Positions 2,414-27,300 of a DNA stretch of 64,000 nucleotides are shown piece after piece. The DNA is from Nitrosospira multiformis (GTDB taxonomy: Bacteria > Pseudomonadota > Gammaproteobacteria > Burkholderiales > Nitrosomonadaceae): the NCBI GenBank assembly GCA_017306155.1, contig JAFKJB010000004.1:1-64000 (forward strand), in the 5' to 3' direction. Each line of letters starts with the position of its first letter. Position 1 is the first letter of the stretch. A program made the position numbers and the translations under genes. Under the pieces are notes generated by a model that was given only the letters and a program-made list of their open reading frames with translations, had not been told where the DNA came from and made no database searches.

Positions 2414-2616
2414 AAGACGATAACAAGCAACCGCCCAAAGGAACATGGCTACAGATAGCAAAAGCGGTATTCTGGGCTTTTTTTGGAGTGCGCAAGCAGA
2501 GTGACCTCGACAGCGATGCGAGTTCATTGACGCCGGCGCAGGTAATCATCGGAGGACTTATAGGCGCCGCCCTGTTCGTCATGAGCTTGATAATAGTGGT
2601 TAAAATAGTTACTTAG
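2410..2616 (+). CDS. DUF2970 small membrane protein
   Basis: A 68-residue protein with one or two hydrophobic segments (about residues 17-26 and 44-66). The AVFWAFFGVRKQSD segment is typical of DUF2970, a family found between ctaG and coxC in betaproteobacterial oxidase operons. It appears to start with TTG at 2410, overlapping the end of ctaG by 4 bases, so it is probably translated by coupling. Function is unknown; a role in oxidase assembly or stability is inferred only from the constant neighbourhood. Confidence 0.8.
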   Translation: MKDDNKQPPKGTWLQIAKAVFWAFFGVRKQSDLDSDASSLTPAQVIIGGLIGAALFVMSLIIVVKIVT

Positions 2617-2646
2617 AATCAATTTTATATACGCAGGAGAAAGAGA

Positions 2647-3501
2647 ATGAGCCAACAAGGAGGAGGTCACTATTACGTTCCAGCGCCGTCGACCTGGCCC
2701 ATTACGGGCTCACTAGCGCTGTTATTCATGGGATTCGGTGCGGCCTTGTCGGTCAACCGGATTCCCGTGGGCTACGGAGTGCTTGCTACAGGTTTTGCTA
2801 TATTGATCTACATGCTTTTCGGTTGGTTCGGCACAGTGGCCCGCGAAAGTGAAAGCGGTAAATTCAACAAGCAGGTCGATAAATCCTTCCGCTGGGGGAT
2901 GAGCTGGTTCATCTTTACGGAGGTCATGTTTTTCGGGGCTTTTTTCGGCGCGCTGTATTACATGCGCATGCATTCCGTGCCGGATCTTGCCGACGTGGAC
3001 AACAAAATACTATGGCCGGACTTCACCGCCGACTGGCCCACGGCAGGTCCCGGCATCACTGAGAAATTCATGCCGATGGGGCCCTGGGGTCTCCCGGCGC
3101 TCAATACCCTGATCCTGCTGACCTCGGGCGTGACCGTCACCTGGGCGCACTGGGCATTGAAGCTGAATAAGCGCGGGCAGCTCAAGCTGGGATTGTTTCT
3201 CACGTTCGCCCTGGGGTTCCTGTTCGTGGGCCTGCAGGCTTATGAATATGGCCATGCCTATTCGGAGATGAATCTCAAGTTAACTACGGGAGCTTATGGC
3301 GCCTCGTTCTTCATGCTGACCGGCTTCCACGGTTTTCACGTGACGGTCGGTTCCATCATGCTGTTCGTCATCTGGTGCCGTGTGCTGAAGGGCCATTTCA
3401 CGCCCGAGAATCACTTCGGCTTCGAAGGGGTCGCCTGGTACTGGCACTTCGTGGACGTGGTCTGGCTGGGATTGTTCATCTTTGTATACTGGCTGATATA
3501 G
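2647..3501 (+). CDS. coxC: Cytochrome c oxidase subunit III
   Basis: Subunit III of the aa3 oxidase, a core integral membrane subunit without redox centres that stabilises subunit I and supports proton uptake. It has 284 residues and seven predicted helices. Landmarks are RWGMSWFIFTEVMFFGAFFGALYY in helix III, LTGFHGFHVTVGS and GVAWYWHFVDVVWLGLFIFVYWL at the C-terminus, all diagnostic. A GGAGAAAGAG ribosome site sits just upstream. It is followed by a hairpin at 3517-3542. Confidence 0.97.
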   Translation: MSQQGGGHYYVPAPSTWPITGSLALLFMGFGAALSVNRIPVGYGVLATGFAILIYMLFGWFGTVARESESGKFNKQVDKSFRWGMSWFIFTEVMFFGAFFGALYYMRMHSVPDLADVDNKILWPDFTADWPTAGPGITEKFMPMGPWGLPALNTLILLTSGVTVTWAHWALKLNKRGQLKLGLFLTFALGFLFVGLQAYEYGHAYSEMNLKLTTGAYGASFFMLTGFHGFHVTVGSIMLFVIWCRVLKGHFTPENHFGFEGVAWYWHFVDVVWLGLFIFVYWLI

Positions 3502-3516
3502 AAAGGGCAGCCAGAT

Positions 3517-3542
3517 AACCAGGGTGGGGAACCATCCTGGTT
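3517..3542. terminator. Hairpin between convergent coxC and DUF2909 gene
   Basis: AACCAGG at 3517-3523 pairs with CCTGGTT at 3536-3542, leaving a 12-base loop. It sits between coxC and the oppositely oriented DUF2909 gene and could stop or stabilise transcripts from both sides. There is no long T tract, so factor-independent termination is uncertain. Confidence 0.4.
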
Positions 3543-3730
3543 CAAAGTGGAATAAAACCGAAGTAGGTTCCAGCCATCAGAAGGGTGAACAGAAAAAGCG
3601 ACAATCCAATACGCAAGGTCAGGGACTTGACAACACGTGTGTCATGTCCCTTGTCCTTGATCAGATAGTAGAGCGCGGATCCAAGGCTGGCAAATATGAG
3701 AAACAGAAGCAGCACGATAACGATTTTCAA
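3542..3730 (-). CDS. DUF2909 twin transmembrane protein
   Basis: A 62-residue protein made almost wholly of two membrane helices (about residues 3-23 and 38-60) joined by the polar loop LIKDKGHDTRVVKSL. This is the layout of the DUF2909 family, which is common beside SURF1 in betaproteobacterial oxidase clusters. It lies on the opposite strand to the cox genes, between coxC and SURF1, so it is not part of the same transcript. Its role is unknown; co-localisation suggests a link to oxidase biogenesis. Confidence 0.75.
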   Translation of the reverse strand: MKIVIVLLLFLIFASLGSALYYLIKDKGHDTRVVKSLTLRIGLSLFLFTLLMAGTYFGFIPL

Positions 3731-3793
3731 GGCTTGATCCCAGAATTGTTAAATCTTCAGGAAGAAGTTTAGCCGAGTTTTGCATCCTATCCA

Positions 3794-4507
3794 ATGACTA
3801 TTTCAGGCTGGCGTTTTACGCCACGATTATGGTCAACAGTAGCTGCAATAGCTATGATAACGATCATGGTGCAACTTGGTAACTGGCAGCTCTCGCGAGC
3901 TCAGGAAAAGGAATCCCGGCAGGAGCAACTCGACCGTCTTTCACAGGAGCCGGCAATTACGCTCCCTGATCATCCGGTGAAGCTTGAAGACTTTCAATAT
4001 CATCAGGTTGAAGCACGGGGCGAATATGTGCCGGAATACACGATCTATCTTGATAACAAAATATACAAGGGGATCGCCGGCTACCAGATTGTAACTCCAT
4101 TGAGAATTGGTAACAGCGAAATGCACGTTCTGATAAACCGGGGATGGATAGCGGCAACCCGCGATCGGAGTAAATTGCCTGAAGTAGCCACGTCAGGCGG
4201 GAAGATTGTCGTTTCGGGCATTGCGACGACAGCAATGCAAAAAACCCTGGAATTGTCTCCGGATCAGATATCCGGCCAGGTATGGGAAAACCTGGACCTC
4301 GAACGTTATCGAAGCAACACTGGTCTGAAGCTACAGCCGGTAATGATCCTGCAGAAAGATCAAATGAATGATGGTTTGGTCCGGGAATGGATTCGACCCG
4401 ATTCCGGCTCGGCCAAGAATATCGGGTATGCCTTCCAATGGTTTGCGATGGCTCTCGCCGTATTGATTATTTATCTGGTGCTAAGTGTCAAACGAGAGCG
4501 TTATTAG
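3794..4507 (+). CDS. SURF1 family cytochrome oxidase assembly protein
   Basis: SURF1/Shy1 proteins sit in the membrane and help place heme a into subunit I. The 237-residue product has the standard form: an N-terminal helix (about 13-32) with the GNWQLSRAQEK segment, a periplasmic domain containing LDNKIYKGIAGYQIVTPL and VLINRGWIA, and a C-terminal helix preceded by NIGYAFQWFAMALA. These are family hallmarks. It overlaps the next gene by 23 bases. Presence of SURF1 implies that heme A is made, although no heme A synthase is found in the cluster. Confidence 0.94.
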   Translation: MTISGWRFTPRLWSTVAAIAMITIMVQLGNWQLSRAQEKESRQEQLDRLSQEPAITLPDHPVKLEDFQYHQVEARGEYVPEYTIYLDNKIYKGIAGYQIVTPLRIGNSEMHVLINRGWIAATRDRSKLPEVATSGGKIVVSGIATTAMQKTLELSPDQISGQVWENLDLERYRSNTGLKLQPVMILQKDQMNDGLVREWIRPDSGSAKNIGYAFQWFAMALAVLIIYLVLSVKRERY

Positions 4508-5090
4508 AAAGAATAGACGGACGCTGATATTGTTGGCGCTGGTATTCAGCGCCCCCTTTATAGCCTCCTATGCACTGTATTTCTGGAATGTGCGGCCTCA
4601 ACCTGTAAATTACGGGGATCTGATCGAAATCAGGCAATTGAAAGGCACGGGGCTGAATGATGCGGACCAGACAATTTTCCGCATGCGCGACCTTCGCGGT
4701 AAATGGGTGCTGATGTCGATCGACTCGGGTGCGTGTGACGAGCAATGCCAGAAGAAGCTCTATTACATGCGTCAGGTGCGTACCTATCAAAACGCTGAAA
4801 TGGACCGCATCGAGCGGTTGTGGCTGATTGATGACGAGCAGAAGCCTTCTCCGGAAGTACTGAGCAACTACGAGGGAATGCATGTCATCCTGGCGAAAAA
4901 CAGTGAGCTGCTCAAGGAGGTGCCGGCCGAAGGGTCGCAGCATGATCATATTTATTTGATAGACCCCATCGGAAACCTGATGATGCGGTTTCCAAAGGAT
5001 CCTGACCCTGGAAAGATGGCGAAAGACATCAAGCGGCTGCTCAAGGTATCCCAGCTGGAGCATGCAATGGGTACGGATATGAAACACTGA
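4485..5090 (+). CDS. Membrane-anchored Sco-like oxidase assembly protein
   Basis: A 201-residue protein with one N-terminal helix (about residues 12-33) and a thioredoxin-like periplasmic domain. GKWVLMSIDSGACDEQCQKKLYYMRQ carries a CXXXC pair in the position used for copper binding in SCO proteins, and HDHIYLIDPIGNLMMRFP resembles the later part of the fold. Proteins like this follow SURF1 in many betaproteobacteria and are usually annotated as conserved transmembrane or SCO-like protein. GTG at 4485 overlaps the end of SURF1. A role in copper or thiol handling for the oxidase is inferred. The gene ends 125 bases before ctaB. Confidence 0.75.
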   Translation: MSNESVIRKNRRTLILLALVFSAPFIASYALYFWNVRPQPVNYGDLIEIRQLKGTGLNDADQTIFRMRDLRGKWVLMSIDSGACDEQCQKKLYYMRQVRTYQNAEMDRIERLWLIDDEQKPSPEVLSNYEGMHVILAKNSELLKEVPAEGSQHDHIYLIDPIGNLMMRFPKDPDPGKMAKDIKRLLKVSQLEHAMGTDMKH

Positions 5091-5214
5091 AAGATACGGC
5101 AACTGGATTGAGCGTAAGCGGCGGGGACTGCTTTTGCACAGGGACAGTCGTGATTCACATTGATTTGTCGAAACGGCGGGCGCAAAACCCGCGATAATTA
5201 GGAGACGAAACGTT

Positions 5215-6111
5215 ATGTCTACAACGAGTATTGCTTGGCAGCAAACTGCTTCGCGCGTGCAGCAGTTTTACCGGTTAACCAAGCCGCGAGTTGTATCGCT
5301 TATTGTTTTTACCGCCGTTATAGGCATGTTTCTGTCCGTTCCGGGCGTTGTACCCCTGGATACGCTCATCTTTGCCACGGTGGGAATAGCGTTCGTAGCG
5401 GGGGCTGCCGCAGCCGTCAATTGCCTCGTCGAGCAGAAAATCGATGCTGTCATGGCCCGTACGCGGGGCCGTCCCCTTCCTCGCGGCACCGTTACTTCGC
5501 CTGAAACCTTTGTGTTCCTGGCGCTTGTCGGCGGCTCGGGTCTGCTGATACTGCATCAACTGGTCAATCCGCTGACCATGTGGCTCACGCTTGGAACCTT
5601 TGTCGGCTATGCGATTATCTACACTGTGATCCTGAAGCCGATGACGCCGCAAAATATCGTCATTGGTGGCGCTTCCGGCGCAATGCCGCCAGTTCTGGGT
5701 TGGGCTGCGATGACGGGTGAAGTGTCGGCTGACGCGCTGCTTTTATTTTTGATCATCTTTGCATGGACGCCACCTCATTTCTGGGCGCTTGCGCTCTATC
5801 GCAAACTGGAATACGCAAAGGTTGGCATGCCGATGCTGCCGGTAACCCACGGCGATAAATTTACGCGCCTGCATGTTCTGCTGTACACGCTGATACTCAT
5901 CGCGGTGACATTGATGCCCTATGCCACGCAAATGAGCGGGCTTATCTATCTGGTCGGCGCAATAGTGCTGGATGCGATATTTTTATACTATGCAGTAAAA
6001 ATCTATCTCAACTACAGCGATCAACTGGCCCGAAGCGCGTTTCGCTACTCGATCATTTATCTGGCAGCGTTGTTTGCCGTGTTACTGGTAGACCATTACA
6101 TACGTTTCTAA
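5215..6111 (+). CDS. ctaB: Protoheme IX farnesyltransferase (heme O synthase)
   Basis: CtaB/CyoE is a UbiA-type membrane prenyltransferase that converts heme b to heme O with farnesyl diphosphate. The 298-residue product has about nine helices and the family motifs: [41 protein letters not shown] (first Asp-rich region) and [28 protein letters not shown] (second conserved region). TAGGAGACG supplies the ribosome site. It is followed nine bases after its stop by the SCO lipoprotein gene. Heme O made here must be oxidised to heme A by an enzyme encoded elsewhere. Confidence 0.96.
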
Positions 6112-6120
6112 GGGGCATGC

Positions 6121-6738
6121 GTGAGGCATCGGCCGCACTATTATAAACTTGTGGTATGGTTGGCAGCGGCGCTATTGATGGCACCGCTCCTTTCAGCATG
6201 TAGCAAGACGGAAAAGCCGGCGTTTCTTTCGACGGACATCACTGGCGCCGATTTCGGCAAGGATTTCAATCTCACCGATCACAACGGGAAGATGCGAACC
6301 CTTGCCGACTTCAAGGGCCAGGTCGTCACGGTATTTTTCGGCTACACTCACTGCCCCGATGCGTGCCCTGCAACCATGGGCAATCTTGCGGCGGCGATGG
6401 ATATTCTGGGCGCTGATGCAGCACGTGTGCAGGTACTGTTTATTACAGTCGATCCCGAGCGAGACCGCCCTGAAGTCCTCAAGGCATACCTGTCTGCCTT
6501 CAATCCCAGCTTCCTCGGCTTGTATGGCGACGAACGTGCGATAAAGAAGACTGCCAAAGAATTTAACGTCGTCTACCAGAAACAACAAGGCGGCGCCCAT
6601 CAGCATGACAGCGTGGACCACTCCACCGGAACCTACATCTATGACACAAAGGGGAAGTTGCGGCTATACGTCAGCAATGACAAAGGCGCTGATGTCTTCG
6701 CGCACGATATCTCCCAGCTCCTCAAAACTTCAGGTTAG
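6121..6738 (+). CDS. SCO1/SenC family copper chaperone lipoprotein
   Basis: A 205-residue protein with a lipoprotein signal (hydrophobic stretch, then LLSAC, lipidated Cys at about residue 27) and a thioredoxin-like SCO domain. The copper site is visible as GYTHCPDACPATMGNLAAAM with its CXXXC, and a distal His is in GGAHQHDSVDHSTGTYIYD. SCO proteins deliver copper to CuA of subunit II. GTG at 6121 follows ctaB closely. It ends the oxidase cluster and is convergent with the flavoprotein gene 26 bases away. Confidence 0.93.
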   Translation: MRHRPHYYKLVVWLAAALLMAPLLSACSKTEKPAFLSTDITGADFGKDFNLTDHNGKMRTLADFKGQVVTVFFGYTHCPDACPATMGNLAAAMDILGADAARVQVLFITVDPERDRPEVLKAYLSAFNPSFLGLYGDERAIKKTAKEFNVVYQKQQGGAHQHDSVDHSTGTYIYDTKGKLRLYVSNDKGADVFAHDISQLLKTSG

Positions 6739-18830: not shown

Positions 18831-21800
18831 ATGAAGATATTGCAGGTGCGATTCAAGAACCTGAACTCGCTGGGGGGTGAATGGGAAATCGACCTGACGC
18901 ACCCGGCCTTTACTTCCGATGGTATTTTTGCCATCGCCGGCCCGACCGGTGCCGGGAAGACAACCATTCTCGACGCCATCTGCCTCGCTCTCTACGGGCG
19001 GACCCCTCGGCTGAGCAAGGTCACCAAAAGCGGCAACGAGATAATGTCTCGTCAGACCGGCGAATGCTTTGCCGAAGTGACGTTCGAAACGCAGGCTGGC
19101 CGTTTTCGTTGCCACTGGAGCCAGCACCGCGCGCGCAAAAAACCGGATGGCGAACTTCAGGTGCCGAAACATGAGATTGCTCATGCCGATTCAGGTGCGA
19201 TTTTCGAATCCAGAATCAAGGGGGTCGCCGAACGGATCGAGGCGGCGACCGGTATGGATTTCGACCAGTTCACCCGATCCATGCTGCTGGCTCAGGGAGG
19301 CTTTGCCGCATTCCTGCAGGCGTTACCTGATGAGCGGGCGCCGATCCTGGAGCAGATCACGGGCACGGAGATTTATAGCAGGATATCCATCCGCGTCCAT
19401 GAACGCCAGCGTGAAGAGCGGGAAAAACTGAATCTGCTGCAGGCTGAAACAGCAGGTATCGTGATTCTGGAGCAGGAACAGGAAAAAGATATCCAGCAGG
19501 AACTCGGGTCAAAACAGAAGGAAGAGTCCGATCTGGCCAGAAAATTAATGGAGACGGATCAAGCCATTATGTGGGTGAAGGCCGTAGATGGACTGAGGAA
19601 GGAAATCGGCAGCCTGGCAGCGGAAGCGGACAAACTGCAAGCCGACATCAATATTTTCAAACCAGAGCGTGACAAACTCAGCCGGGCAATTCAGGCAGCA
19701 TCACTGGAAGGTTCCCATGCAACGCTCACAGCAATCCGGATACAACATGCGGATGAGCAGAAAGCACTGAAAACCGGGGAAGTAGTCCTTCCTGAACTGG
19801 CATCCTCTGCCAGGGAACAAGCCGAATCACTGCAATCGGCTGAGCGGCAGTCCACTGGAGCCAAAGCGGAGCTGGAAGCTGCTTTGCCGCTCATCAGGAA
19901 GGTTCGTTCCCTCGATCAGACGCTTGCTGACCGGAAAAAGGCTATTTCGAAAGATGAAGACAACTGCAGGAAAGACACAATAAAGATCGATGCTGACAAA
20001 CAGGCCAGGCTGAAAGAACAGGAAAAGCGCGCTACTGCTGAAAAGAATCTGAAGGTTGCCGAAGACTATCTGAAGGAGCATGCCCAGGATGAGTGGCTGA
20101 TAAGCAGCCTGGCCGGTGTCGAGGAACAGCTGGGCAATTTACTCATCAGGCAGAAAGAAATAGCACAAAAAGAGGCCGATAAAGAGAAGGCAGTGACGGC
20201 TCTGGAACAGGCGACAAAAAAACTGGCTGCCTGCCGGAAGCAATGTGTAACCTGGAAACAGGAACTGGAGGAGGTCTCAAAGAATCTCCAGCAAGGTAAA
20301 GATAAATTAAGCCAGTTGCTGGGCGACCGGCTATTGCGTGAATACCGCGCAGAAAAGGAAACCCTGCTTCGGGAAATGGTTTTCCGGAAAAAAATAGCGG
20401 AACTTGAAGATCACCGGGCCAGATTGGAAGATGGCAAGCCATGCCCGCTTTGTGGTGCAACAGAACACCCGTTTGCAGAGGGTAATGTTCCCATTCCCGA
20501 TGAAGTCGAACGGAAGATCGGGGTGCTCGATAGACTGATAAGCAAAGCTGAAGATCAGGAAAGTATCATCAAGAAACTTGAAGGAGTTGAGGTCAGAGCC
20601 CGTACAAATCTGGCGGATGGTGAAAAACAGGAAATAACGGCAGTTAATAACAAAAAAACTGCCGGGCAAACCCTTTCCGAGTTGAAGGAGTATCTGGAAA
20701 AACTCCAGGCTGGTATTACCGGATTGAAGCAGGCTGTATCAGCGAGACTCCAACCGCTCGGGATTGCGGAAATTCAGGATTCCAATGTTCCAACACTGCT
20801 GGAATCCCTTCGGGAGCGCCTGAAGGCATGGCAGGCACAAGTCAGGAAAAAGGCTGATATCGAGAAACAGATTGGAGATTTCGATAGCGAGTTGAAACGG
20901 CTGGAGGCAGTCATTGAAACTCAAAGCAATGCATTGAATGAAAAACGGGAATATCTGGAATCCCTCAAAAAGGATTACGCCGCTGGATGTGATGAGCGGA
21001 AAGAATTGTACGGTGATAAAAATCCTGATGATGAAGAACCCTGTCTGAACAAGAGTATTTCCATTGCAGAGGAGGCGGAAAGGAAAGCCAGAGCCCTGCA
21101 TAATGCTCTGCAACAGAAATTGAATACTGCGAAGACTCAAATTGAAGCTCTGAAAAAGCGCATCGGTCAAAGAGATCCAGAACTGAGAGAGCTGGAAGCC
21201 GAATTTACAGGAGCGCTTGGACTGGCCGGTTTTTCGGATGAAAAACAGTTTCTTGAAGCCAGACTCACTGTTGGGCAAAGAGATGCTCTGTCTGCAAAGG
21301 CAAAGAATCTGGACGATCACCAAATAGATCTCAAGGCCAGACAAAAGGATCGGGAAGCGCGTTTGGCCACGGAAGCCGCCAGGAAAGTTACCGACAAATC
21401 TCTTGAGGAACTGGAACCGCAATTCAAGGATTACGAGGAGTTCCTGAAACAGCTGCGGGATACTATTGTCCGCCTCAAACACAAACTGAGCGAGAATGCC
21501 GCTGCCAAGGAACGGCTGGAGGCCAAGCAAACGGCTATCGAGGCTCAAAAAATAGAGTGCCGCCGATGGGAAAATCTGCATGCATTGATTGGCTCAGCGG
21601 ACGGAAAGAAATACCGGAATTTTGCCCAGGGGCTGACCTTCGAGATGATGATTGGCCATGCTAACCTGCAACTGCAGAAAATGACCGATCGCTATCTGCT
21701 GGTTCGCGATGATACTCAACCCCTGGAACTCAACGTGATCGACAACTATCAAGCGGGTGAGATTCGATCCACGAAAAACCTCTCAGGCGGCGAGAGTTTC

Positions 21801-22097
21801 ATCGTCAGTCTGTCGCTGGCGTTGGGGCTGTCTCACATGGCCAGCAAAAATGTTCGCGTGGACTCGCTTTTTCTGGATGAAGGCTTCGGCACGCTGGATG
21901 AAGAAGCACTGGATACCGCTCTGGAAACTCTTGCGAGCCTGCAGCAGGACGGCAAGTTGATCGGCGTGATCTCGCATGTCTCGACTCTCAAGGAGCGCAT
22001 CAGCACGCAGATTCTGGTAATTCCTCAAACCGGCGGAAGGAGCGAGATATCCGGACCAGGCTGCAGAAGAAACCTAACCGGTCAGACTTCTATTTAA
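18831..22097 (+). CDS. sbcC: Nuclease SbcCD subunit C (Rad50 family ATPase)
   Basis: A 1088-residue SMC-like ATPase and partner of SbcD. Walker A is GPTGAGKTT at residues 37-45. Two long coiled-coil arms rich in Glu, Lys and Gln flank a zinc hook CPLCG near residue 539. The C-terminal half has the ABC signature LSGGESFIVSLSLALGLS (about 983) and Walker B SLFLDEGFGTLD (about 1012). Length and layout are normal for the family. The last 20 residues after the D-loop and switch region look unconserved. Confidence 0.96.
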   Translation: MKILQVRFKNLNSLGGEWEIDLTHPAFTSDGIFAIAGPTGAGKTTILDAICLALYGRTPRLSKVTKSGNEIMSRQTGECFAEVTFETQAGRFRCHWSQHRARKKPDGELQVPKHEIAHADSGAIFESRIKGVAERIEAATGMDFDQFTRSMLLAQGGFAAFLQALPDERAPILEQITGTEIYSRISIRVHERQREEREKLNLLQAETAGIVILEQEQEKDIQQELGSKQKEESDLARKLMETDQAIMWVKAVDGLRKEIGSLAAEADKLQADINIFKPERDKLSRAIQAASLEGSHATLTAIRIQHADEQKALKTGEVVLPELASSAREQAESLQSAERQSTGAKAELEAALPLIRKVRSLDQTLADRKKAISKDEDNCRKDTIKIDADKQARLKEQEKRATAEKNLKVAEDYLKEHAQDEWLISSLAGVEEQLGNLLIRQKEIAQKEADKEKAVTALEQATKKLAACRKQCVTWKQELEEVSKNLQQGKDKLSQLLGDRLLREYRAEKETLLREMVFRKKIAELEDHRARLEDGKPCPLCGATEHPFAEGNVPIPDEVERKIGVLDRLISKAEDQESIIKKLEGVEVRARTNLADGEKQEITAVNNKKTAGQTLSELKEYLEKLQAGITGLKQAVSARLQPLGIAEIQDSNVPTLLESLRERLKAWQAQVRKKADIEKQIGDFDSELKRLEAVIETQSNALNEKREYLESLKKDYAAGCDERKELYGDKNPDDEEPCLNKSISIAEEAERKARALHNALQQKLNTAKTQIEALKKRIGQRDPELRELEAEFTGALGLAGFSDEKQFLEARLTVGQRDALSAKAKNLDDHQIDLKARQKDREARLATEAARKVTDKSLEELEPQFKDYEEFLKQLRDTIVRLKHKLSENAAAKERLEAKQTAIEAQKIECRRWENLHALIGSADGKKYRNFAQGLTFEMMIGHANLQLQKMTDRYLLVRDDTQPLELNVIDNYQAGEIRSTKNLSGGESFIVSLSLALGLSHMASKNVRVDSLFLDEGFGTLDEEALDTALETLASLQQDGKLIGVISHVSTLKERISTQILVIPQTGGRSEISGPGCRRNLTGQTSI

Positions 22098-22531
22098 CCG
22101 TAAGGCTTGTGCATTCCATCATAGGGTTTTGGTGAAAGCGGCCTGGCTTGGTAAATTTTTGCTTCAGGCTAGATAGTCGTCCCGCCATTGCTTTTCCTTG
22201 TGATCGTGTCGAAAATATTTCCAAAAGCAGTTGTTGATTCAATGAGTACTTTTATAACATAATGAAAATTAATCATTATTATAATAGGTATAGATTTTGC
22301 TTCTTAGAGATTAAGTGCGAAAGTATGGGAAGGCGCTGTGAGAATTTCGATCTGGGAATATTTGTCTTGACAGATAAGGGTGGTTATAGTAATTCGTAAC
22401 TTATCCAGCATGTGCTATGGTTTCCTTCGAATTAGGTATACTGCTATTTATCAATAAATGGCAAGTTCAGGAATTGATGGGTATAAGCATATGGTTCAAA
22501 CGCACTCTACATGCCGCGAAAGGCCAATATC
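22098..22531. other. AT-rich intergenic region before the HPr-rel-A locus
   Basis: About 430 bases without a gene, distinctly more AT-rich than its surroundings, notably at 22250-22300. It probably holds the promoter of the locus that starts at 22532. No convincing -35/-10 pair or sigma-54 site was found. An AT-rich leader ahead of a small accessory operon is compatible with horizontal acquisition, but that is an inference. Confidence 0.4.
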
Positions 22532-22975
22532 ATGTCTGAAAAGCAATCAAATAAACAAGAATCAGAGCCGCTCAGTTTGAAAGAACAAGCTGGCAATCTG
22601 TCTGAATCGAGTAGGAGGCGCCTACTCAAGGGTACGGTAGCAATTCCCATAATCATGACTCTACACAGTGGTGCTGCACTGGCGCGTACGAGCAATCTCG
22701 TGGGACCTACTGAAGATATAAATAGCGCAAAGAAGGATGAAACCGGGGATTTATATTGTGTCCATCCAAGCTCAGATGGGAATGCCAGCACTATTCCCGT
22801 TGATCTTGGAACCAGTCCAACCGCCACCGTCAATCAGATAAGAGGAGCGAATGGCCTGCCTGATCTGCAAGCTCAAGCTGCAGCATGCCAAAACGGGGGC
22901 GGAATTCTGGTGTCTGCAACTGCTTGGGGTTCTGTTTTGCCAAAGTTAAGCAGTATCTCAACCATCACGACGTAA
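22532..22975 (+). CDS. RR-signal exported protein, putative substrate of the HPr-rel-A system
   Basis: A 147-residue protein not recognised as any characterised family. Residues 1-26 are polar (Glu, Gln, Lys, Ser). Then comes ESSRRRLLKG (27-34), a hydrophobic run to about 47, and ALAR at 49-52, giving a twin-arginine-like signal with likely cleavage after ALA. The mature part is about 96 residues, polar, Ala/Gly/Thr/Asn-rich, with two Cys (DLYCVHP and AAACQNGG). ATG 22532 is preferred over the upstream frame from 22511. It begins a co-oriented run with a PqqD-like gene, an HprK-related kinase and a nucleotidyltransferase-like gene. Its place as first gene with a small exported product makes it a candidate for the modified substrate; this is an inference. 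Confidence 0.7.
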   Translation: MSEKQSNKQESEPLSLKEQAGNLSESSRRRLLKGTVAIPIIMTLHSGAALARTSNLVGPTEDINSAKKDETGDLYCVHPSSDGNASTIPVDLGTSPTATVNQIRGANGLPDLQAQAAACQNGGGILVSATAWGSVLPKLSSISTITT

Positions 22976-23015
22976 ATCACATTCGTCCTATAACGGACTC
23001 TCTGGCAACAAGAGC

Positions 23016-23318
23016 GTGCCTTCAAAAGTTTGCTGGCGGTCGGTCGGCTTCTCATTTCTGCAAATCCAGGAATGGAATGAGGAATTCACCGTATTCCAAC
23101 CTGATTCGGGAAAAACCCATTTTCTGAATCAGATGGGAATGCAGATTCTTTCGACTCTTGACCAATCTCCTGCGTCGACAGATGACGTCTGCATTTTACT
23201 GACCAAGCAATTTCAGTTGCCACAAGACCGGAATTTTCTCCAGCAGATCATAAAGACTCTTCATCACCTTGACGAACTTGGCCTGATTGAGAAGGCAGGA
23301 CAGGAACCGTCGACGTGA
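23016..23318 (+). CDS. PqqD-family peptide chaperone, HPr-rel-A system
   Basis: A 100-residue protein. The segment WNEEFTVFQPDSGKTHFLNQ followed by MGMQILSTL and a C-terminal helical part ending LHHLDELGLIEK has the PqqD fold: a beta-hairpin, THxLN turn and winged-helix-like tail. PqqD proteins hold precursor peptides for modifying enzymes. TIGRFAMs describes a PqqD family restricted to loci with HprK-related kinase A, and this gene sits directly before that kinase with GTGA overlap. GTG 23016 is the likely start. Its peptide partner is unknown; the upstream RR-signal protein is the obvious candidate. Confidence 0.82.
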   Translation: MPSKVCWRSVGFSFLQIQEWNEEFTVFQPDSGKTHFLNQMGMQILSTLDQSPASTDDVCILLTKQFQLPQDRNFLQQIIKTLHHLDELGLIEKAGQEPST

Positions 23319-24223
23319 TAGTGGGACAGATCCCGTTCAGCGAATTTTTTTCGTTGCTCTCAAATCAGGGACTCAGAGCCAAGATGGGTCCTTTCAATAT
23401 GCAAATCCGTACAGCGTCTTCAACGCTTGCGGAGCATTTATACAGTCTCTATGGGAATTACGAACTGGTGGAGCGTGATCTCGTCGAGTTTCACGTGCAG
23501 ATCAGTCCAGTACGGCTCATAAAAAAACCCTTCTCTCCGCATGCACTTTTTTTTCTTGACGGGCGCTCGTTATTTCCGCCGTTTCCCGCGGAGCAGGCAC
23601 TTGCGGCACTTGAGTGGGGCATTAATCTCGCGGTTGCGGCAAGGATCAATCATTTATTATTATTTCATTCAGCCATAGTTGAGAGAAAGGGTTACGCAGT
23701 AATACTTCCTGCCAGCCCAGGCAGTGGCAAAACCACGTTATGTACAGCCTTGGTGCATCGGGGATATCGGTTGTTCTCGGATGAATTTGGACTGATGGAT
23801 CCCGGTCGTGAAATTTTTTTACCTATTCCAAGGCTGATGCCACTCAAGAATGAGTCTATTCGTGCCATAAGAAATTACTTGCCGGAAGCAGTTCTCGGAC
23901 CTGAAATAAGAAATACGCACAAAGGTACAATTACGCATGTTCGTCCTCCCACTGAAAGTATCGCGCGCTCCGACGAAACTGCAAAGGCAAAGTGGATTAT
24001 ATTCCCCAAATGGGTGTCTGATGCTCCGCTCAGATTGGATCCTCTTCCTGACTCGGAAGCTTTTCTCCTTTTAGCCAGTAACTCATTCAATTATGAAGTT
24101 TTGGGCGATACGAGTTTCCAGGCTGTCACCCGCCTCATAAGAAGCTGCCGCTGCTATAAACTGATCTATTCGGAATTTGACGCCGCATTAACTGCTATAG
24201 ATGCATTGACTGATGACATATAA
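23315..24223 (+). CDS. HprK-related kinase A
   Basis: A 302-residue P-loop protein related to HPr kinase/phosphorylase. FHSAIVERKGYAVILPASPGSGKTTLC gives the strand and Walker A (133-141), and RLFSDEFGLMD (152-162) the acidic Walker B-like site, with IPRLMPLKNESI downstream as in the family. It lacks the extended bona fide HPr-binding region, and a true HPr in this window is 17 kb away, so HPr need not be the substrate. GTG 23315 overlaps the PqqD-like gene by 4 bases, and the gene overlaps the next by 11, indicating one transcript. Substrate unknown. Confidence 0.88.
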   Translation: MIVGQIPFSEFFSLLSNQGLRAKMGPFNMQIRTASSTLAEHLYSLYGNYELVERDLVEFHVQISPVRLIKKPFSPHALFFLDGRSLFPPFPAEQALAALEWGINLAVAARINHLLLFHSAIVERKGYAVILPASPGSGKTTLCTALVHRGYRLFSDEFGLMDPGREIFLPIPRLMPLKNESIRAIRNYLPEAVLGPEIRNTHKGTITHVRPPTESIARSDETAKAKWIIFPKWVSDAPLRLDPLPDSEAFLLLASNSFNYEVLGDTSFQAVTRLIRSCRCYKLIYSEFDAALTAIDALTDDI

Positions 24224-25310
24224 GCCACCAGCGCACCACGCGCTGTTATTGAACGCGCTTATTAATCCAGCGTCTCTGGTTGAATACAATGCGACAAAAT
24301 GGGAACTGTTATTACGATTGGCGAGAAAGGTGAAACTACTGGGCCGCCTTGCGATAGATCTCAAAAATAGAGGGCTTCTGGATCATATTCCATTACGGGC
24401 GGCCAATCTACTGCAATCAAGCCTCATCCAGGTAAAGAGACTACAGCAAATCACACACTGGGAATTGAACCGGATTTCGTGGGCACTGAAGGATACGGGC
24501 GCACCGGTCGTCGCCCTGAAGGGAGTTGCTTATTTTCTTGCGGGAGTGCCTGAATCAGACGGTCGAATGTATGTTGATCTGGACATCATGGTTCCAAAAG
24601 ATCGGTTATCAGACGTTGAATCAACACTGACGAAGAAAGGATGGGTGCATCATCATAAGCTTTCCGCCTACGATGAACATTACTATCGGGCGTGGAGCCA
24701 TGAAATACCACCCCTGATTCATTCTGAGCGAGAAACGGAAGTCGATATCCATCACACACTCTCCCCGCCGACAAGCAGGTTGGAAATAAATACCGGTTTG
24801 CTATTTAGTGCTGCTGTGACAGCCGGCAATTCCGGCTACAGGATCCTCTGCCCGGCCGACATGGTGCTCCACTGCGCTGTTAACTTGTTCCAGAATAATG
24901 AGCTTGCAGATGATTTGCGCGATTTACTCGATATTCACGACCTATTGCTGTTTTTCAGTAAAAATGAAAAGGATTTCTGGGAAAAATTAATAGAACGTGC
25001 AAATCAGTTGAATCTTGGCAGGTCTCTTTTTTATGGACTGTACTTCAGCCGTTTCATTTTTCAAACGCCGATTCCTGAAAATTTGGAAAACGATCTGAAT
25101 GAAAAGCCCAATCCGCTTTCACGAAGGATCATGCATTACCTCGTTCCACAAGCGTTATTCCCATTGCATCCGGACAAACATTCCAGGCATGCCCTGGTAG
25201 CTCGTTCATTGCTGTATCTGCGCAGTCACTGGATACGGATGCCAATTCACCTTTTAGTCCCGCATCTTGCATATAAAACTTATTTATCAATATTCCGGGC
25301 AAAGCAGTAG
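24213..25310 (+). CDS. Uncharacterised nucleotidyltransferase family protein (PF14907-like)
   Basis: A 365-residue protein. PVVALKGVAYFLAGVP (98-113) followed by MYVDLDIMV (119-127) gives the GS/KG-type turn and paired Asp (122, 124) of a nucleotidyltransferase fold. Later, EVDIHHTLSPPTSR has another Asp-containing strand, as in the PF14907 family. Such proteins recur beside HprK-related kinases and in exopolysaccharide loci, but the acceptor is unknown. It ends the four-gene run. The frame overlaps the kinase gene by 11 bases. Confidence 0.82.
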   Translation: MTYKPPAHHALLLNALINPASLVEYNATKWELLLRLARKVKLLGRLAIDLKNRGLLDHIPLRAANLLQSSLIQVKRLQQITHWELNRISWALKDTGAPVVALKGVAYFLAGVPESDGRMYVDLDIMVPKDRLSDVESTLTKKGWVHHHKLSAYDEHYYRAWSHEIPPLIHSERETEVDIHHTLSPPTSRLEINTGLLFSAAVTAGNSGYRILCPADMVLHCAVNLFQNNELADDLRDLLDIHDLLLFFSKNEKDFWEKLIERANQLNLGRSLFYGLYFSRFIFQTPIPENLENDLNEKPNPLSRRIMHYLVPQALFPLHPDKHSRHALVARSLLYLRSHWIRMPIHLLVPHLAYKTYLSIFRAKQ

Positions 25311-25568
25311 GCACGTCCGCTGAAAAATTGCCGAACGATGAAACCCGCGAAAGTGAAATCCGGAGCATGGAAATAAGCGCGGACTGAGCGAACTACTGGA
25401 CCGTACATTCGTCATTTCTCGGTAGCGTCCCGCCGCTTCGTTCTCACCGATATATTTGGAGGGAGGTAAACCAGATTTAGGGAGCATGCTGCAGCCGAAC
25501 ATCGGTATTTCTCTGTTTGACGTGCCTTCAAGGTCCTAGCGGATTTTTCCAACGATGAAACAGGAGAA

Positions 25569-25645
25569 TGGCGCGCCCAACACGATTCGAACGTGTGACC
25601 CCCGCCTTCGGAGGGCGGTACTCTATCCAGCTGAGCTATGGGCGC
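25569..25645 (-). tRNA. tRNA-Arg (anticodon CCG)
   Basis: On the minus strand the cloverleaf is complete: acceptor GCGCCCA with TGGGCGC, D-arm AGCTCAGCTGGATAGAG, anticodon loop CTCCGAA giving CCG (reads CGG), T-arm with GTTCGAATC, discriminator G, and CCA encoded at 25571-25569. It stands alone between the nucleotidyltransferase gene and the cytochrome c gene. Confidence 0.96.
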
Positions 25646-25746
25646 GAACAGGATGCATTTTTGAATCGGGCGCATAGGATAACGCTTTTTAATCCCTCCG
25701 TCCAACCTGAATAAAACCGCTTTTGCTTGGATAGATGAACCTATAC

Positions 25747-25769
25747 AATAAACGTTCTTAACGTTTATT
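25747..25769. promoter_or_regulatory. Perfect 10-bp inverted repeat before cytochrome c gene
   Basis: AATAAACGTT, CTT, AACGTTTATT: ten perfect base pairs around three bases, 15 bases before the GTG start of the cytochrome c gene. It abuts a possible -10, TACAAT at 25744-25749. It could be an operator or a 5' leader hairpin. There is no T tract, so it is not a terminator. Confidence 0.55.
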
Positions 25770-25783
25770 ACTGGAGAGTTATT

Positions 25784-26341
25784 GTGAGCGACGTTGAAGA
25801 CGAAGGGCATTCCACGCCTATCCAGACACCGGGTCAGTTGATTGTTGTCGTCCTGGCCGCTTTCATAGTTCCAGTCGTTGTTTTGTCAATGATCGGACGG
25901 TTTGCCATCGGAGAAAGCTCCATGGATCCAAGCAGTCCTGCTTTTTCGGAAGAGGCCATAGCGAAGCGTCTTCATCCGGTGGGCAATCTGGTGATTGCAG
26001 GCGACTCCACCCAGCCCGAAGCGCAAACGGGGGAAGGCGCAGTCGTGGCCACGGCCGCTCCGGCAACTGCCAGCGCCGCTCCTGCGGCGGAAGACCCGGC
26101 GGAAAAAGCCAAGAGAATTTATACCGCCAGTTGCGCCGCCTGTCACGCCACCGGCGCTGCCGGCGCACCCAAACTGGGGGACAATGCAGCATGGGCGCCT
26201 CGCATCAAGACAGGCACGGAGACGCTTTATACCAGCGCATTGAAAGGCAAGAATGCCATGCCACCCAAAGGCGGAAACGCCGGGCTGCCTGATGACGACG
26301 TTAAAGCCGTTGTTGATTATATGATCAGCCAGTCCAAATGA
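25784..26341 (+). CDS. Membrane-anchored c5-type cytochrome c
   Basis: A 185-residue protein with an N-terminal membrane helix (about 19-40), a low-complexity Ala/Pro/Glu linker (about 80-105), and a monoheme domain with CAACH (about 118-122) and distal Met in NAMPPKGGNAGLPDDDVKAVVDYM. This is the cytochrome c5/c555 form, an electron carrier facing the periplasm. GTG 25784 has GGAGAG upstream. It may feed the aa3 oxidase at the left of the window, which is inference. A perfect inverted repeat lies just upstream. Confidence 0.92.
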   Translation: MSDVEDEGHSTPIQTPGQLIVVVLAAFIVPVVVLSMIGRFAIGESSMDPSSPAFSEEAIAKRLHPVGNLVIAGDSTQPEAQTGEGAVVATAAPATASAAPAAEDPAEKAKRIYTASCAACHATGAAGAPKLGDNAAWAPRIKTGTETLYTSALKGKNAMPPKGGNAGLPDDDVKAVVDYMISQSK

Positions 26342-26472
26342 CCTGCTGAGAAGTTGAAGGCGGGGCAGGTGCAGCGGGCGATAGGGAGAATTCCATATCG
26401 CCCTTGTTTTTTCTTCAAGGATAATTCGGCGTATCTCTCTACTCAGCCTGTTGGCAATCATCCTTCCATCTC

Positions 26473-27300
26473 ATGGCCATTTACACAATCGGTGACTTGC
26501 AGGGTTGCTATCGCGAATTCCGGGAACTCCTCGACCTGGTCCGTTTCGACGAGACGAAAGACAAGCTGTGGCTGGTGGGAGACCTGGTTAACCGCGGGCC
26601 GGACTCACTCTCGGTATTGCGCTTCGTAAGAGAGCTGAACGACTCCGCAGTAACGGTGCTGGGCAATCATGATCTGCATCTGCTCATGGTTGCGGAAGGA
26701 TGCGTAGGGCTAAACCGAAGCGATACCTTGCAGGACATCCTCGATGCGCCCGATCGGGATGAGTTGCTCGGTTGGCTGCGGCAACAGAAGCTGTTGCATG
26801 TGGACGGCAACTACGTCATGGTGCACGCTGGCCTGCTGCCCTCTTGGAGTATCGGCCAGGCGCAAGTGCTTGCCACACTGGTAGAGAACGCCTTACGAGG
26901 AAGCGAATTCCATGAATTTTGCCGTCAGATGTACGGAAATCAGCCGGATCATTGGAGTGAGACCCTCAACGGATATGAACGGCTACGTGTGATCGTCAAT
27001 GCCATGACACGCATGCGCGTCTGTACTCCTCAGGGAAGAATGGATTTTTCCTACAAGGGTTCGGTGAAGGACATTCCACCCGGCTATTTGCCCTGGTTCG
27101 ATGCGCCCGGGCGAGCCAGCCGGAAGGCAACCGTTATCTGCGGTCACTGGTCGGCACTGGGTCTTGAGATCAGGAGCAACCTGATGGCGCTCGATACCGG
27201 GTGCTTATGGGGAAGCAGCCTTACCGCTGTTCGTCTGGAAGATCGGAAGGTTTTCCAGACGGCTTGTGGGGCAGGGGGAGCGCCAAAGCGTTGGCAATAG
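26473..27300 (+). CDS. apaH: Bis(5'-nucleosyl)-tetraphosphatase, symmetrical
   Basis: ApaH hydrolyses Ap4A to two ADP and removes Np4 caps from RNA. The 275-residue product has the calcineurin-like metal motifs YTIGDLQGCYREF, LVGDLVNRGPDSL and VTVLGNHDLHLL, later MVHAGLLPSW and VICGHWSALG. It starts at ATG 26473. Its last 80 bases overlap the end of the plsC-type gene on the other strand, an unusually long tail-to-tail overlap. Confidence 0.95.
   Translation: MAIYTIGDLQGCYREFRELLDLVRFDETKDKLWLVGDLVNRGPDSLSVLRFVRELNDSAVTVLGNHDLHLLMVAEGCVGLNRSDTLQDILDAPDRDELLGWLRQQKLLHVDGNYVMVHAGLLPSWSIGQAQVLATLVENALRGSEFHEFCRQMYGNQPDHWSETLNGYERLRVIVNAMTRMRVCTPQGRMDFSYKGSVKDIPPGYLPWFDAPGRASRKATVICGHWSALGLEIRSNLMALDTGCLWGSSLTAVRLEDRKVFQTACGAGGAPKRWQ

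Follow-up and report, generated by a model that had tools for sequence, protein, structure and literature searches.

A twin-arginine protein as the probable substrate of an HprK-related kinase cassette in Nitrosospira multiformis

What does an HprK-related kinase A act on? The question is raised by four + strand genes at positions 22532-25310 of the window, by which we mean the whole 64,000-nucleotide stretch of DNA analyzed here, from Nitrosospira multiformis, a probable ammonia oxidizer (GenBank assembly GCA_017306155.1, contig JAFKJB010000004.1, positions 1 to 64,000). They encode a protein with a twin-arginine signal (the RR protein), a PqqD-like protein, the kinase and a nucleotidyltransferase. 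A sequence-only reading had described four co-oriented genes, with two cysteines in the RR protein and the last three genes overlapping or abutting, and had put forward the RR protein as substrate. The layout is as it described:

22532..22975, + strand: RR protein gene (147 amino acids, ATG start, two Cys), candidate precursor or substrate
23016..23318, + strand: PqqD-like peptide chaperone, candidate recognition element (GTG start; TIGR04353, PF05402)
23315..24223, + strand: HprK-related kinase A (GTG start; TIGR04352)
24213..25310, + strand: nucleotidyltransferase (PF14907)

Genes 2 and 3 overlap by 4 bases and genes 3 and 4 by 11 bases, with a gap of 40 bases between genes 1 and 2. A substrate role for the RR protein in this system is well supported by its occurrence across genomes, and we moderately favor reading the locus as a whole as a cassette for protein modification, similar to those of ribosomally synthesized and post-translationally modified peptides (RiPPs), with the RR protein as its dedicated precursor. 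For the steps that go beyond co-occurrence (binding, chemistry and export) we infer phosphorylation or nucleotidylation, followed by export through the twin-arginine translocation (Tat) route.

The family assignments proposed for genes 2 to 4 all scored above library cut-offs. Gene 2 belongs to TIGR04353, the ‘HPr-rel-A system PqqD family peptide chaperone’ of NCBIfam (63.6 bits, cut-off 35), and narrowly to PF05402 of Pfam (24.3 bits, cut-off 23.4). Gene 3 is a TIGR04352 protein, HprK_rel_A (339.6 bits, cut-off 200, NCBIfam), and gene 4 a PF14907 protein (173.8 bits, cut-off 31.2, Pfam). With both of its proteins above the curated cut-offs, the window locus is a member of the HPr-rel-A gene set of NCBIfam, whose family names give no substrate. 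Gene 1 matched no Pfam or NCBIfam family above cut-off, the best being formate_TAT (12.9 bits vs. 48.45). We aligned 23 RR proteins of the window's family (alignment A1), 18 from other classes of the phylum (A2) and a set of proteins of a kind that we call type 1 (A3). No convincing NCBIfam match was found for the window protein and eight others searched singly, for the 23 proteins of A1 or for the 18 of A2; the best expect value (E) was 2.1e-4, to AmiA, in 3 of the 23, and formate_TAT recurred as a weak match in 4/23 (A1) and 4/18 (A2). The start of the RR gene at 22532 is backed by its nearest relatives in named genomes, N. multiformis Nl12 and Nl18 (L031 and L032, 86% identity; L and G numbers are our handles for loci and genomes), which match from MSEK onward and diverge upstream. 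In Nl12 (L031 6419-6768; also L091) the PqqD-like match is split across two frames, and the RR protein, kinase and nucleotidyltransferase of L031 are each matched within one frame.

Does the RR gene accompany the kinase elsewhere? A kinase above the TIGR04352 cut-off was present in 27/274 genomes of the class set, 32/125 of the family set and 61/398 of the phylum set, giving 116 genomes once overlaps were removed and the window's genome was counted in. Neighborhoods were read in 114 of them, two genomes with partial kinases (G557, G573) being left out. An RR gene adjoins the kinase in 105 of these 114 loci, many of which come from a few families, relatives sharing loci by descent. A hidden Markov model (HMM) grown from the window RR protein found 104 of them, with one match per locus among 16804 open reading frames of at least 30 codons, and the last (G722), which the HMM missed, was recognized by eye. 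The HMM was iterated on the same loci and its lone weak matches (E near 1e-5) need care; position and leader agree. The matches lie on the strand of the kinase in 103 cases and on the opposite strand in one (G521), and, measured from the start of the kinase frame, the genes all end between 690 bases before it and 475 bases after it. Among the nine remaining loci, five have their RR gene elsewhere in the genome (G415, G457, G469, G509, G651), and in four of these five genomes with a separate kinase it adjoins the PqqD-like gene. In a further two (G259, G276) the kinase stands at a contig end; the last two are weighed below. As for the genomes left out, the kinase fragment of G557 shares a contig end with an RR gene and a PqqD-like gene, and G573 gave no RR match in the phylum-set search with A2.

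Genomes without the kinase were searched as well. The A1 model matches 30 of the 125 family genomes, comprising 30 of the 32 with the kinase, a figure largely built in because A1 was made partly from these sequences, and none of the 93 without it, which is not built in. The A2 model matches 41 of the 398 phylum genomes, namely 40 of the 61 with the kinase and one of the 337 without an over-cut-off kinase; it misses type 1 and most of a third RR kind, and since the phylum searches scored the first six (kinase) and nine (A2) candidates per genome, absences are less sure here than in the family. In the lone exception, G452 (A2 E 9.2e-4), a neighboring protein matches the kinase HMM at 1.7e-20. 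With up to 12 candidates scored, the A3 model has matches in 30 genomes of the class set (274 in all), 23 of which belong to the 27 that have the kinase and 7 to the 247 that do not. Its matches in G101 and G184 fall in the leader and adjoin HprK-like kinases below the TIGR04352 cut-off, and that in G262 looks spurious. The sequence-only reading had offered the kinase neighborhoods of other genomes as a check on its substrate proposal, which the absence of the RR gene there was to refute. That absence was not seen; the 105 adjoining genes, the five relocated ones and the 93 empty family genomes all support the proposal.

Could the neighbors simply have been inherited together, as a conserved block in which gene 1 has no functional linkage to the rest? 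Shared descent, with so many of the 114 loci drawn from few families, speaks for this explanation. The cassette, however, comes and goes as a unit:

22172..25544, strand not applicable: whole cassette, a discrete indel absent from two sister genomes; G+C 46.1% vs. 54.0% in the rest of the window

Sequence comparison shows that the sister genomes G370 and G372 are without the whole 3.4-kb cassette, their flanks being ~90% identical to window positions 20749-22171 and 25545-27000 (25527 in G372) and only ~50 to 65 bases apart. The indel contains just the four genes, with sbcC on one side and, directly after the low-G+C cassette, a tRNA-Arg gene (25569-25645, − strand) on the other. This low G+C leans toward gain over loss, though the sister comparison alone cannot separate them. 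Promoter- and terminator-like sites were about as numerous as in shuffled sequence. Presence or absence as a unit, a patchy distribution in the genus (the kinase is in 3 of 23 genomes), low G+C and the persistence of relocated RR genes where the kinase occurs already disfavor an unlinked gene 1, which we regard as very improbable.

Which part of the RR protein would be acted upon? Conservation is concentrated at its two ends:

22532..22684, + strand: leader, residues 1-51, a Tat-like signal with R28 R29, L31, K33, P39, T43 L44, S46 and A49-x-A51
22613..22618, + strand: twin arginine R28-R29, from the sequence and the A1 alignment
22922..22936, + strand: C-terminal motif A131-W-G-S134-V135, with Ser134 (22931-22933) as the proposed phospho-acceptor

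The leader follows the pattern R-R-x-L-x-K ... P-x-x-x-T-L ... A-x-A, and the twin arginine, hydrophobic stretch and A-x-A (SRRRLLKG...SGAALA) are Tat features recognizable in the window protein by sequence. The leader residues listed above are the invariant leader columns of the 23 sequences in A1, and the invariant columns of the mature part include C76, C119, S128, A131 and S134. Only nine columns never vary in the 18 sequences of A2; they hold R, R, L, K, P and T of the leader, two Cys, one of them in the place of A131, and the tail Ser. The leader and tail are constant and the middle of the protein is variable. Ser134 stands 13 residues before the C-terminus of the window protein. The tail reads S-A-x-A-[FYW]-x-S-[IL] in most relatives of the window protein, S-C-W-x-S-F in most A2 proteins and T-C-F-A-S-L in the third kind.

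We counted the tail motif as [CA][WFYLIMN]xS[FLIVM] within the last 30 residues of 112 RR proteins (104 found by the HMM, that of G722, six whose loci are split or broken, and a further copy in G569). By this pattern it is present in 83 of the 112, and the Ser is followed by 1 to 16 residues. G088, counted among the 83, is a type 1 protein that matches by chance, and the corrected figures are 82 tail-bearing proteins and 30 type 1 proteins. When the mature parts of 92 proteins were shuffled 500 times, the mean was 1.4 motif matches and the maximum 8. These 92 are the motif bearers plus nine that the pattern did not assign to type 1 and that look type 1-like by eye; as the motif was defined with the sequences in view, and the pool divided only once it had been applied, the shuffle tests chance and not the choice of pattern. 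If cut after A-x-A, the shortest mature parts would be ~12 residues (G057) and ~20 residues (G565), and both keep the tail motif, ending S-C-N-A-S-L-I and S-C-L-D-S-F-N-G-L, respectively. The second copy in G569 (L184, G569:C66:1-5500) forms an RR + PqqD pair with no kinase match there, in a genome that also has a kinase-adjacent RR gene.

Type 1 proteins suggest another answer, in which the RR protein is the substrate and the modified residue lies elsewhere (a Cys, or another Ser or Thr), the tail serves docking or folding, and the final group is phosphoglycosyl or nucleotidyl. These proteins are without the tail motif and keep a C..S..S-x-N-x-S stretch; in an alignment of 20 of them, C48 and S55 never vary and S51, N57 and S59 hardly do. 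The invariant Cys residues of A2 point the same way, as do a tail Ser that is never the last residue, unlike that of lasso precursors, and the psmN-dependent addition of hexose described in the lasso literature cited below. The mature part of the two shortest precursors, however, is nearly all tail motif, and the lasso kinases recorded there modify Ser. We consider an acceptor elsewhere in the protein quite unlikely. A type 1 profile found no credible relative in the PDB, and the type 1 proteins scanned matched no Pfam family.

The enzymes themselves retain candidate catalytic residues:

23666..23785, + strand: kinase active-site stretch with H118 (23666-23668), Walker A K139 (23729-23731) and D156-E157 (23780-23785)
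24576-24584 and 24744-24746, + strand: conserved Asp residues of the nucleotidyltransferase, D122-x-D124 and D178

The His, Walker Lys, Asp and Glu of the kinase (H118, K139, D156 and E157 here) are invariant in 114/114 rows. A profile of 27 kinases finds HprK (1jb1) in the PDB at E 5.4e-5; both are P-loop kinases, and their His, Walker Lys and Asp align in a match over the P-loop region only. Against Hpr_kinase_C of Pfam the kinase scores 14.9 bits, below the cut-off of 33.3. HPr itself is an unlikely substrate of the cassette kinase. D122, D124 and D178 are invariant in 20 nucleotidyltransferase sequences (alignment A7) and in 95/95 rows with a letter there, and a profile of this protein gave no PDB row up to E 0.5. 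The PqqD profile had designed helical proteins as its top PDB rows, the lasso recognition protein TbiB1 appearing only at E 0.1. AlphaFold2 models from four-sequence alignments were poor (mean predicted local distance difference test score 36.0 for the kinase and 44.4 for the nucleotidyltransferase) and were not used. The genome has a gene for TatC.

A tree of 110 kinases, built by a quick method with long branches flagged, sorts almost completely by substrate kind, with 3 label changes (three labels) vs. a mean of 49.8 in shuffles, and one of the 3 is the mislabelled G088. Both substrate kinds occur within the class and also within the order, so that substrate kind follows the kinase and not taxonomy alone. 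This bears on a different possibility, in which the RR protein would be a partner that is exported and not the substrate of the kinase, with the PqqD-like protein as its Tat proofreading chaperone and the kinase and transferase acting on another protein or a small molecule. The pairing of RR and PqqD-like genes in four of the five genomes with the kinase elsewhere agrees with such a role, as does the leader being the most conserved part of the RR proteins. Yet the kinase tracks RR presence closely and its tree sorts by RR kind, neither of which an unrelated target needs, and the tail Ser is invariant amid otherwise variable proteins. We judge an exported partner of this sort to be unlikely.

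What chemistry might a dedicated precursor undergo? The lasso-peptide kinases, which the sequence-only reading did not mention, are the closest recorded chemistry. The B1 adaptor of lasso systems, which we take to be PqqD-like, would be the counterpart of the HPr-rel-A PqqD-like protein. According to two reviews (PMC9266682, PMC8498205), the HPr-kinase homologue PadeK acts on the linear lasso precursor and phosphorylates its C-terminal Ser, ThcoK and SyanK are able to add several phosphates, lasso kinases need a His-Lys-Asp-Asp motif, and the attachment of one or two hexoses to phospho-Ser requires psmN, annotated as a nucleotidyltransferase gene, the sugar possibly being added by a host enzyme. 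Phosphorylated lasso peptides (paeninodin with PadeK, ThcoK, SyanK; pseudomycoidin with PsmK/PsmN) have the HPr-kinase homologue and a Ser toward the end of the precursor in common with the cassette, and pseudomycoidin also has a nucleotidyltransferase, like the HPr-rel-A trio, PsmN being likened by annotation and not by PF14907 membership. The cassette seems to resemble this phosphorylating tailoring, yet it is no lasso cluster: unlike lasso clusters, the indel (22172-25544, the extent compared) has no lasso cyclase or leader protease gene, and the RR precursor is larger than lasso precursors and has a Tat-like leader. With PqqD and other RiPP recognition elements it shares a small discrete protein, here encoded directly after the precursor gene, but the leader is Tat-like and the cassette has no radical S-adenosylmethionine (SAM) gene. 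A term search of two recognition-element papers (PMC7470986, PMC12710340) returned neither ‘kinase’ nor ‘HPr’. The open-access literature (subscription papers and preprints being outside its scope) yielded no paper with HPr-rel-A, HprK-related kinase or TIGR04352, and no evidently related paper joining a RiPP recognition element with twin-arginine.

A precursor-like gene adjoining a recognition element and tailoring enzymes is a mark of RiPP pathways, and this arrangement is found here. In such a cassette the PqqD-like protein would bind the N-terminal Tat-like signal, which would double as the leader, and the HprK-like kinase would phosphorylate the conserved tail Ser (Ser134 in the window protein); in type 1 proteins the acceptor Ser may lie just past the signal, within a stretch reading C-[TS]-x-S-G-x-x-S-G-N-L-S. 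The nucleotidyltransferase may then cap the phosphate with a nucleotidyl or sugar group, and the modified product would be exported by Tat and cleaved after A-x-A. The chemistry is proposed in this sharper form because the tail Ser is conserved and the phosphorylation of lasso precursors, with a nucleotidyltransferase-dependent sugar, has been published.

Several observations weigh against this proposal. A single acceptor site cannot fit all RR proteins, as 30 of the 112 (type 1) are without the tail motif; the tail Cys is replaced by Ala in the relatives of the window protein; and in G057 a weak match runs past the stop, leaving truncation of the gene possible. The phosphorylated Ser of the lasso precursors on record is at the very end, whereas the tail Ser of RR proteins is near but never at the C-terminus (1-16 residues after it), and D156-E157 of the cassette kinase differs from the D-D reported for lasso kinases, so that three of four motif residues are identical. 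The window RR protein is below the cut-off for every Tat model in Pfam and NCBIfam; its best relative in this respect, L057, reaches 18.3 bits with PF10518 (cut-off 22.7) and 14.3 with TIGR01409 (cut-off 16.7). No RR gene was found for G275, whose PqqD-like gene is at a contig start, or for G597, to whose RR kind the A2 model is blind. The type 1 mature domain also occurs outside the system, since the A3 matches in G080, G084, G099 and G215, and likewise second sites in G015 and G249, cover the mature domain only. The agreement between kinase and substrate kind is explicable as plain co-inheritance. Finally, the cassette is without a leader protease, transporter or immunity gene.

A number of loci at the margins of the family are recorded here. 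Other proteins, outside the system, carry the mature domain of type 1 (TPGYWKNH ... HAVAALLNA) in G015:C37, G080:C1, G084:C6, G099:C48 and G215:C152, in open frames of 207 to 1352 residues. In L176 (G101:C1:1-10000), RR-leader peptides at 4576-4749 and 6212-6391 (57 and 59 amino acids; basic G-S-R-K) flank an HprK-like kinase at 4843-5730. L177 (G184:C15:47000-52379) has, at 2609-5141, a PqqD-like protein, an 87-amino-acid RR peptide with S-N-L-S-G-N and a sub-cut-off HprK-like kinase. The RR protein of G452 (L185, G452:C20:110000-115500), with a Cys-rich stretch, adjoins radical SAM/SPASM, HprK-like (by HMM) and PF14907 proteins, possibly as a mixed RiPP cluster. L060, L061 and L062 have PF14907-like (by HMM) and PqqD-like proteins and a sub-cut-off HprK-like kinase, without an RR match. 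We had considered these three as lasso clusters and rejected the idea after running Pfam on seven neighboring frames, because L060 and L062 each have a TrmB-like methyltransferase next to the kinase, and glycosyltransferase domains lie in the kinase frame of L061.

How far might such a system extend? We tentatively suggest, as something short of an even chance, a widespread and undescribed class of RiPP-like phosphopeptides or phosphoproteins in which the Tat signal is the leader, read first by a PqqD adaptor and then by Tat. It would reach beyond TIGR04352, because the sub-cut-off HprK-like kinases of G101, G184 and G452 adjoin RR-leader peptides, and it would span mature parts from ~12 residues to domains of ~200. 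For the HprK-related kinases, the present analysis turns a family without a named target into a testable system for which a substrate and a serine are named and a role for the leader is hypothesized. Should the Tat signal indeed serve as the modification leader, RiPP maturation and Tat proofreading would be joined, and small exported proteins without a library family could be annotated by like reasoning in other genomes of the phylum.

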